A DNA stretch of 32,219 nucleotides from Spirochaetaceae bacterium (GTDB taxonomy: Bacteria > Spirochaetota > Spirochaetia > Treponematales > Breznakiellaceae). This document shows, one piece after another, positions 7,929-17,929 of this stretch; the stretch's first letter is position 1, and every line of letters starts with the position of its first letter. The stretch spans positions 1 through 32,219 of the forward strand of contig JAISMB010000136.1 in the NCBI GenBank assembly GCA_031276945.1, read 5' to 3'. A program made the translations under genes and the position numbers. The notes under the pieces were generated by a model, which was given only the letters and a program-made list of their open reading frames with translations, made no database searches and was not told the origin of the DNA.

Positions 7929-10013
7929 TCAGTGTATGTCTTTCAGAGAACTCATATTGTCCAAGACGGTTTTACTAGAATTGAGCAAGAGGGTGGTCTC
8001 ATTCTTAATTGTTGTTATGAGCTGATTTATCAGGGTAAGCGCATCAATAACCTGTTTACCATTGTTACTTTCTATTTCAACCGCATCAGCTATTATCTGA
8101 TCTTCATTTTTAACCGCATTGACTAAGGTGATAATCGCATCAAACTGATTCTGAGCGTATACTGAAGACTCCAAGGAACTATCAATCAAGCTCTTAATGT
8201 TGCCCAGACTATGCTCTATCTCCCGTGATTGAATGCCGGCAGTTTCTGCAAGGTGGCGGATTTCACCAGCGACAACCGCAAAACCTTTGCCTATCTCTCC
8301 GGCATGAGCCGCCTCTATAGAGGCATTCATCCCCAGTACCTTAGTTTCCTGAGAAACCGATTCTATAATTTTGCTGATATGAATCAGTATAGTTGATTGC
8401 TCCGCCATTTTACCGACCAGCTCTCCAATTTTAAGTATCTGATTTTTCCCTTCCAATGATGATGTGTTCAACTGGATTACCGTTTGGGCATTGCGCTTAA
8501 CATTTTCATTGATAGACCGAATCTTGTGTACCATTGCTTCAATAATAACAAATGACTTCTTTATATGGGTAACCGCTTCAGTTATCAGGCTCAGCAGAGC
8601 ATTAATACCTTTGATATTACTGTTTATTTCCTGTAATGTCAGAGCATAGATTTTTTCGATGGCAGTCTTTAATTCATACTGGTAGCGTTCTTCATTTAAT
8701 TTATTTTGTACTATAGTGTAATGCCAGCAATGTTCAGGCTTGTTAAGCCCGTTAATAATAGCAATCGCCATCTGCTCGCAATTCGTGTAGCCGCACGCGC
8801 CGCAGTTAAGAAAATCATCTTCGTTGATCTTATACAGCTTCTTATACGCAGCTTCCAGCTCTTCTTCAGAAGGTTTCTTTATCATCGTATGAAAGAGAGC
8901 GGAGCGATCAACGTAGGAACGAGTAAAAAGTCCTTCATCCCAATACTGATCAAGAATATGTTCCAGCTTAGGTTTTGAAAATAAGGACTGTTTGTACTGA
9001 GCCTGCGCTTCATGGGATCGTTTCTCAGCATCCAATTCAATATCTTCTACATAGCGCTGCTGGGTAAGCGTGCCGGCGCCTCCGTTACAGCCGAGCTTGC
9101 AACTCAAGCAATCGACTAAACTGCACGGAGGGTTCTGTTCATCAAGAAATTGCTTTAATCGGTCAAGGTACTGGTAAACATCAGGGACTCCTTCTATCTT
9201 ACGGGTGGAATAGAAGGCATTTTTATCATACCGCGCAAAGGTCTGCATAAGACCGCCGGGTGTAGAAAACATAACCGCCCGCTCAGCAGGCGGATTCTCG
9301 TACGGTAGGGCGCTGTAATTTTCAAGGCGGTCGCCGCTGTCTTCCAAATACTGCTGTATGGAAAGAAAGGTAACATTGTAATCGCCCAGACCAACGGCGT
9401 TAAATTCCCTCCGTTTTGAATAACAGGGGGAGAGAGCTGCAATTTTGCACTCAGCGTACTGCGGATAAAACTTCCTGATTACTTTCATAATATGCCCCAT
9501 AGGACTATCAGCCGGCGCAAGGTAGCGGATAAGCTCAGGATGGTATAATTCAATGAATGAAACGAGACTGGGACAAGGCTGGGCTATGATAAGGGATGGG
9601 TTGTATTTCTTTTTATAAGCTACATAGGACTTAATCGTCAGCTCCGCACCGAAACTTACATCAAAAACTGCCTGTACACCGAGCTTTTTAAGAAATCCGT
9701 TGAATTTGAGATAATTGTTGCTAAAATTGGCAATAACAGCCGGTGCGACAACAGCAATGATACGAGTTCCTGTTTTAACATCACGGATGAAGGTATCAAA
9801 ATCATCAATACCAACACGCGCTCCATGTTTACACGTGCGTATACATTCGCCGCATCCTATGCACAACTCAGAGTGCAAAGAAATTGTATCTCCTGAGCCG
9901 TCGTTGCACATCTTGACCGGACATACTGCAATACACCGATGACAATTAATGCACTTTTCCTTAAGTACCCGTATAACAGGCACTAATTTTTCATTGTTTG
10001 TCTCATTGCTCAT
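7929..10013 (-). CDS. Cytosolic chemoreceptor with [FeFe]-hydrogenase-like sensor domain
   Basis: This 694-residue protein couples a hydrogenase-like Fe-S module to chemotaxis signalling. Two 4Fe-4S ferredoxin motifs come first (Cys21/24/27/31 and Cys51/54/57/61). A H-cluster domain follows: IIAQPCPSL (Cys147), LSPCYSKRREF (Cys197) and DCLSCKLGCNGG (Cys305, Cys309). These match the four cysteines that hold the H-cluster in true [FeFe] hydrogenases, but the proton-relay Cys of the usual TSCCP is Pro here. A four-Cys Fe-S motif (CGACGYTNC, Cys404/407/412, and Cys429) links to a coiled coil and an MCP signalling tip near 560-590 (NASIEAAHAGEIGKGFAVVA). There is no signal peptide or membrane helix, so it is cytosolic. 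The likely job is sensing H2 or redox state and signalling to CheA/CheW, not bulk catalysis. Maturases and chemotaxis partners are not in the window. The ATG at 10013 follows GGCGGTAAG. Confidence 0.85.
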   Translation of the reverse strand: MSNETNNEKLVPVIRVLKEKCINCHRCIAVCPVKMCNDGSGDTISLHSELCIGCGECIRTCKHGARVGIDDFDTFIRDVKTGTRIIAVVAPAVIANFSNNYLKFNGFLKKLGVQAVFDVSFGAELTIKSYVAYKKKYNPSLIIAQPCPSLVSFIELYHPELIRYLAPADSPMGHIMKVIRKFYPQYAECKIAALSPCYSKRREFNAVGLGDYNVTFLSIQQYLEDSGDRLENYSALPYENPPAERAVMFSTPGGLMQTFARYDKNAFYSTRKIEGVPDVYQYLDRLKQFLDEQNPPCSLVDCLSCKLGCNGGAGTLTQQRYVEDIELDAEKRSHEAQAQYKQSLFSKPKLEHILDQYWDEGLFTRSYVDRSALFHTMIKKPSEEELEAAYKKLYKINEDDFLNCGACGYTNCEQMAIAIINGLNKPEHCWHYTIVQNKLNEERYQYELKTAIEKIYALTLQEINSNIKGINALLSLITEAVTHIKKSFVIIEAMVHKIRSINENVKRNAQTVIQLNTSSLEGKNQILKIGELVGKMAEQSTILIHISKIIESVSQETKVLGMNASIEAAHAGEIGKGFAVVAGEIRHLAETAGIQSREIEHSLGNIKSLIDSSLESSVYAQNQFDAIITLVNAVKNEDQIIADAVEIESNNGKQVIDALTLINQLITTIKNETTLLLNSSKTVLDNMSSLKDIH

Positions 10014-16900: not shown

Positions 16901-17929
16901 ATGCGTAAGTTAGATGCCGCTGGTTTAGGCGGATTATTATTGGTCTGTATGGCTGAAACGGTCTGGGGAGCGCCGAAAGACAACGCTTTGGGCGCCGGAT
17001 TGTTTGCGCGGATAAGCACGGTCCGCGGCGAGATTGTAGTGCAGCTTGAATATCAGAAAGCGCCGCTGACGGTCTGCAACTTTGTTGCCCTTGCCGAGGG
17101 CAAAATGCCCCGCGCCGGCGCCAAGCGTTTTTATGACGGCTTAACTTTTCATCGGGTTATTGCTGATTTTATGATACAGGGCGGCGATCCGCTGGGCAAC
17201 GGAACAGGCGGACCGGGCTATCAATTCCCCGATGAATTCGAGCCGAGCCTTAAACATGACAGCCCCGGGATTCTTTCTATGGCGAATGCCGGTCCCAATA
17301 CTAACGGCAGTCAGTTTTTTATTACCCATAAGGCAACGCCGTGGCTTGACGGCAAACATACGGTCTTCGGCAGGGTTATTGAAGGGCAGCAGGTGGTCAA
17401 TGCGATTAAACAGGGCGATAAGATAGAAAAGGTAACGATCATTCGCAACGGGCTGCCGGCAACGACTTTTAAGACTGACCAAGAAGCTTTTGATACGCTG
17501 GTGCAACGGCATAAAGAGGCGCTCTCGGTGCGCGTCAAGATGCAGCGCAAGAATGATCTTGCCTTGATTGCCCGGCAGTACCCTGACGCAAAAAGCAGTC
17601 AATCGGGCATTTATTATAAAGTACAGAAAGCCGGCAGCGGCGCAAAGCCGGCAGCGGGTGCGAAGGTGCGTGTCGGGTATAAGGGGGCTTTCCTGTCCGG
17701 CGCTGTTTTTGACGCTTCGGATATTCACGGCGGACCGTTAGAGTTTACGGTTGGGGTTGGGCAGGTCATTTCAGGCTGGGATGAGATGCTCCTTGATATG
17801 CAGAAGGGCGAAAAACGCCTCATAATACTCCCCCCGGAAGCCGCCTATGGGGAACAGGGTGCGGGCAACGGTCTTATTCCGGCGCACAGCTTTTTAGTTT
17901 TTGAGATGGAACTGCTGAACATTCAGTAA
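16901..17929 (+). CDS. Double immunophilin: cyclophilin–FKBP fusion
   Basis: One 342-residue chain carries two unrelated peptidyl-prolyl isomerase domains. An N-terminal hydrophobic segment ([17 protein letters not shown]) looks like a signal peptide, so it should act in the periplasm. The cyclophilin part spans about 35-190, with [15 protein letters not shown] (Arg85, Phe90, Gln93), GSQFFIT (Phe140), Trp148 and His153, equivalent to the human CypA active site. A linker of about 50 residues (190-240, charged and helical) leads to an FKBP domain at about 245-342, with [23 protein letters not shown]-like VISGWDEML and [11 protein letters not shown]. Such dual-family immunophilins have been described in a few organisms including spirochaetes, from memory. 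Start and ribosome site are weak. Its stop is directly followed by the inverted B'-A' repeat array. Confidence 0.9.

Follow-up and report, generated by a model that had tools for sequence, protein, structure and literature searches.

A soluble chemoreceptor of a Spirochaetaceae bacterium with a putative sensory [FeFe]-hydrogenase input domain

Analysis of a 32,219-nucleotide stretch of DNA (the window, contig C142 of a 2.18-Mb Spirochaetaceae assembly that is 82% complete) identified a gene in which two ferredoxin motifs, an [FeFe]-hydrogenase-like H-domain, and a further FeS domain are joined to a methyl-accepting chemotaxis protein (MCP) domain. The encoded protein is a soluble, cytoplasmic-type MCP fusion, and it probably acts as a chemoreceptor in the cytoplasm, with a sensory [FeFe]-hydrogenase domain of low turnover as the input that conveys an H2 or redox signal to CheA. 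Its architecture, fold, strict conservation of ligand and pocket residues, and solubility, as well as CheA and CheW in the same genome, were observed. The receptor belongs to a large and already recognized class of putative H2-sensing receptors. Its gene and domains occupy the following positions in the window.

7929..10013 (-), whole receptor gene (Fer4-Fer4, H-domain, FeS, MCP), 694 amino acids (aa), ATG start
9819..9968 (-), two [4Fe-4S] ferredoxin motifs, residues 16 to 65, with C21, 24, 27, 31 and C51, 54, 57, 61 (Pfam Fer4)
9075..9764 (-), H-domain (Fe_hyd_lg_C), residues 84 to 313 (Pfam, 1e-27), with a fold match to solved [FeFe]-hydrogenases
9567..9587 (-), L1 loop IAQPCPS, with ligand C147 and Pro146 at the position of the group A proton-relay Cys (alignment to canonical HydA)
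9411..9431 (-), L2 loop SPCYSKR, with ligand C197, K200, and S195 at the Met353 position (alignment)
9078..9113 (-), L3 loop DCLSCKLGCNGG, with ligands C305 and C309, L303 at the Met497 position, and an extra invariant C302 (alignment)
8727..8810 (-), C-terminal FeS domain Cx2Cx4Cx16C, residues 402 to 429 (PF04060, 5e-8), with C404/407/412/429
8457..8726 (-), helix linking the FeS domain with the coiled coil, residues 430 to 519 (full-length AlphaFold2 model, low confidence at about 492 to 508)
8073..8456 (-), MCP signaling hairpin, residues 520 to 647 (MCPsignal, 1.1e-17), with the tip NASIEAAHAG, which is like that of the genome's other MCPs

All Pfam matches of the receptor (Fer4 twice, Fe_hyd_lg_C, PF04060, and MCPsignal) were above cut-offs, and the Pfam architecture confirmed the direct fusion of H-domain and MCP in one open reading frame (ORF) that a sequence-only reading of the DNA had proposed. 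The two ferredoxin motifs, the H-cluster loops, and the ligand cysteines at 147, 197, 305, and 309 named in that reading were recovered by Pfam and by cysteine position, as were the further four-Cys motif (PF04060) and the MCP signaling tip (MCPsignal, 1.1e-17). The four-Cys motif after the H-domain has a spacing of exactly Cx2Cx4Cx16C, a motif known from putative sensory hydrogenases in groups C and D, where it lies in the C-terminal domain (PMC8163306). No transmembrane segment was detected in the receptor by hydropathy, in agreement with the earlier claim; its top Kyte-Doolittle 19-mer scored 1.3, whereas those of most other MCPs of the source genome scored 2.2 to 3.6. A model of the sensor (pLDDT 90.5, pTM 0.90) was matched to structures in the PDB, all 50 of those listed being [FeFe]-hydrogenases (best E value, 6e-22), and the H-domain as modeled has the hydrogenase fold. 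A geometric ground for refutation named in the sequence-only reading, four cysteines that could not face one cluster, was addressed by this fold similarity only. In the full-length AlphaFold2 model, the FeS domain and the MCP coiled coil are joined by one helix, and confidence was low around residues 492 to 508 and 637 to 654.

Comparison of 40 MCP/H-domain fusions showed that all 16 cluster cysteines were invariant, along with Lys200 (PCxxK), Ala90-Pro91, and Gly253-Gly254, and that Pro146, Gln145, Asp301, Cys302, and Asn310 were invariant too. An architecture with 16 invariant cluster cysteines is far beyond chance. Relative to canonical HydA, the alignment placed Pro146 in the position of the CpI relay Cys299, Ser195 in that of Met353, and Leu303 in that of Met497, and the last two substitutions are the pattern of TamHydS (PMC8163306). 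The proline of AQPCPS had been regarded as unusual, but it was the norm of the lineage (40 of 40 fusions); because about 10% of the sensory sequences in HydDB have been reported to carry proline at the relay position (PMC10055695), Pro146 is the rule for a recognized minority type and was rejected as an oddity. Cys302 (DCLxC), which the sequence-only reading had not mentioned, lies three residues ahead of the L3 ligand; it was invariant in the MCP fusions, and no equivalent was present in the group A, C-like, and D-like sequences used for comparison. The relay Cys is also missing from TamHydS and TmHydS, both of which are slow (PMC8163306, PMC10055695), and by analogy with them the proposal that the receptor senses H2 with poor turnover is plausible.

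Three H-domain genes were found in the source genome, namely, the receptor, a 693-aa paralog with the same architecture and 55% identity (contig C42), and a canonical group A hydrogenase (L001 on contig C17; NCBIfam group A6, 803 bits). The genome encodes about 20 MCPs, and CheA and CheW, which had been suggested as a check on a chemotactic role, were both present. Neighbors of the receptor gene were predicted to encode an amidohydrolase, an alanine-racemase-like protein, a polysaccharide deacetylase, an FtsJ-like methyltransferase, and DXP reductoisomerase; these are unrelated to hydrogen, and no linkage to hydrogenase genes was found. Elsewhere in the window (16901-17929), cyclophilin and FKBP domains occur in a single protein, a double prolyl isomerase.

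A scan of species genomes returned 516 relatives of the receptor. Almost all of the best 80 of these came from Treponema-type metagenome-assembled genomes (MAGs), many of them from termite gut or rumen as indicated by isolate codes and titles, and an MCP domain with a conserved hairpin was present in 69 of the 72 readable ORFs among these 80 (the other 3 were truncated or broken). A set of 30 relatives supplied many fusions of 690 to 750 aa. Judged by record titles, the hosts of the fusions come from H2-rich guts, rumen, and digesters, which bears out the setting expected at the outset, treponemes of H2-rich habitats. The MCP fusion itself had been taken as unusual, a view that did not hold, since HydDB group C2 already has an MCP link (PMC5037454), and a unique fusion was rejected on the basis of the paralog in the same genome and the 516 relatives. 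Two MCP-fused H-domain receptors were found in tandem in one genome (L074:4300-8662, G006). Such receptors also occurred in contigs labeled Phycisphaerae, Halothermothrix, and Tannerella (L183, L185, and L167, respectively), where horizontal transfer may explain them; the Tannerella contig is short and may instead have been misbinned.

In three sequences (L082, L083, and L084), the Fer4-H-domain-FeS module was carried on hybrid histidine kinases (HisKA, HATPase, and receiver), with Hpt in two of these and GAF in one. The occurrence of the same module on these kinases supports its role as an input domain. PAS-tailed sensors were also present in organisms with MCP and histidine kinase fusions. 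In a tree of treponeme H-domains, the MCP and histidine kinase fusions formed one clade (support, 100/99) that excluded the PAS-tailed, group D-like, B, and A sequences; the labels B and D were assigned partly from motifs and from one NCBIfam match (L093, B1) and not from the HydDB classifier. The split of MCP-only sequences from those with histidine kinases was weak (69/90), and the deep position of the clade includes some long branches. The tree rejected placement of the receptor with the PAS sequences (group C) or with the group D-like ones, though the deep branches are long.

In the proposed mechanism, H2 or an H2-coupled ferredoxin pool would alter the state of the H-cluster, and the change would be relayed by way of the C-terminal Cx2Cx4Cx16C domain to the helix that leads toward the MCP hairpin, which would then set CheA activity and hence swimming reversals. 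The relay is more likely to proceed by conformational change than by electron flow, because in TamHydS H2 fails to reduce the C-terminal cluster but does alter the secondary structure of the protein (PMC13104023). The bound cluster, H2 as the ligand, the relay, and the behavioral output are what we infer for the receptor. No H2-binding or taxis data for any MCP fusion were found in the papers examined. The receptor could instead serve redox or energy taxis, with the ferredoxin clusters reading the reduced-ferredoxin pool, the H-domain acting as an electron sink or redox reporter, and H2 not being the physiological ligand. The invariant pair of N-terminal [4Fe-4S] motifs and a further one on the C-terminal side are consistent with such a role, as are the solubility of the receptor, which places it to read the cytoplasmic pool, and the altered proton path (Pro146), which would slow H2 turnover. 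However, the H-cluster-specific residues K200, A90-P91, and G253-G254 are invariant and would be needless for a plain ferredoxin sensor, and redox taxis of this kind is considered unlikely.

HydE, HydF, and HydG were not detected over cut-off in the 82%-complete source genome. The absence of these maturases, which the sequence-only reading had named as evidence against itself, is thus literally the case for this bin; however, the bin is incomplete and has a group A hydrogenase, and all three maturases were present in a congener (G001), so that an incomplete assembly is the simplest explanation in the case of the source genome. Across 44 other fusion-bearing genomes, HydG was found in 22 and HydF in 24 (both in 20, one in 6, and neither in 18); the completeness of these genomes is unreported, and part of the deficit must therefore be missing sequence. 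Two genomes that are 98 to 99% complete (G022 and G027) encode the fusion but lack all of HydE, HydF, and HydG, and both keep canonical hydrogenases. Canonical group A hydrogenases with none of the three maturases were also found in G020 and G023 (single contigs, 99%), G024, and G029. These six genomes are 95 to 99% complete, and their group A hydrogenases are L062, L057, L041, L043, L046, and L040 (in G020, G023, G022, G027, G024, and G029, respectively). Since G020 and G023 each consist of one contig, their deficit is unlikely to be a mere binning artifact. Maturases are missing from too many relatives for H2 sensing by a full H-cluster to count as settled, and the deficit is no proof for or against a full H-cluster in the receptor. 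The maturases missing from the bin, from 18 of the 44 fusion genomes, and from G022 and G027 stand against the H2-sensor reading, as does a gene position unlinked to hydrogenase genes.

An H-domain that carries a [4Fe-4S] cluster only, lacks the organometallic [2Fe] site, and responds to O2, NO, or redox would be consistent with retention of the fusion in the near-complete, maturase-free G022 and G027 and with the joint absence of HydF and HydG from 18 of 44 genomes. Yet no degenerate pocket was seen in the maturase-negative genomes, the alignment showing identical pocket residues in fusions with and without genomic maturases. Furthermore, the maturase-free genomes keep group A hydrogenases, so another maturation route may explain the absence, and the congener G001 has the full set; a domain of this kind is considered quite improbable. 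For the many gut treponemes that have receptors and canonical [FeFe]-hydrogenases without HydE, HydF, and HydG, it can be suggested only tentatively that this combination reflects either a novel maturation route or [4Fe-4S]-only sensing. A slow hydrogenase that still works, with the MCP part as a localizer or relic, would fit the complete ligand set of the H-domain but is very improbable, given that 69 of 72 readable relatives (among the best 80 of 516) keep the MCP and its conserved hairpin and that the relay Cys is lost throughout.

H2 is the central intermediate of gut fermentation, and none of the papers examined demonstrated a receptor that guides cells toward or away from H2. Members of the receptor family are soluble and abundant in spirochetes of termite guts and rumen, and their pocket has a distinctive invariant signature (QPC / SPCxxK / DCLxCxxGCN), properties that make H2 taxis directly testable. 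The maturase gap would also pose the problem of how gut treponemes assemble their [FeFe] cofactors.

H-domain sensor/transducers were reportedly described in termite-gut Treponema by Ballor, Paulsen, and Leadbetter in 2012 (Microb Ecol; cited in PMC4070709), with chemotaxis suggested, and the kind of host is like that of the receptor. The receptor has the four ligand cysteines in L1, L2, and L3 and the fold of H-domain proteins in general. It shares the fold, the four ligand cysteines, and PCxxK with the group A hydrogenase of the same genome (L001), which differs in having TSCCP with the relay Cys and no FeS/MCP tail and in exceeding the NCBIfam group A cut-off; the receptor, with Pro146 in place of that Cys, fell below it (88.8 versus 405.95 bits). 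TamHydS (group D, or M2e) resembles the receptor in Ser at M353, Leu at M497, Cx2Cx4Cx16C, and lack of PAS but has no MCP (PMC8163306). The receptor thus has the group D residues and no PAS, but clustering with group D was not seen; treponeme sequences with D-like motifs formed a separate clade in a tree from which TamHydS itself was left out, and the label D applies by motif only. TmHydS (group C, or M2f) is like the receptor in its two Fer4 motifs, H-domain, C-terminal FeS motif, and absent relay Cys and unlike it in ending with PAS instead of MCP, in having Ala at the relay position, and in M353G and M497S (PMC10055695). The Cx2Cx4Cx16C motif after the H-domain, a trait of group C HydS, is therefore shared, with MCP in place of PAS, and the treponeme PAS-type sequences formed a clade separate from the receptor. 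As in chemoreceptors, an MCPsignal hairpin is present, with CheA and CheW in the genome. HydDB lists [FeFe] Group C2 as "chemotactic (putative)," with its role given as undetermined (PMC5037454). By description only, the receptor corresponds to that group, in which an H-domain is likewise tied to a methyl-accepting chemotaxis protein and H2 sensing is proposed (PMC5037454), the link here being a direct fusion.
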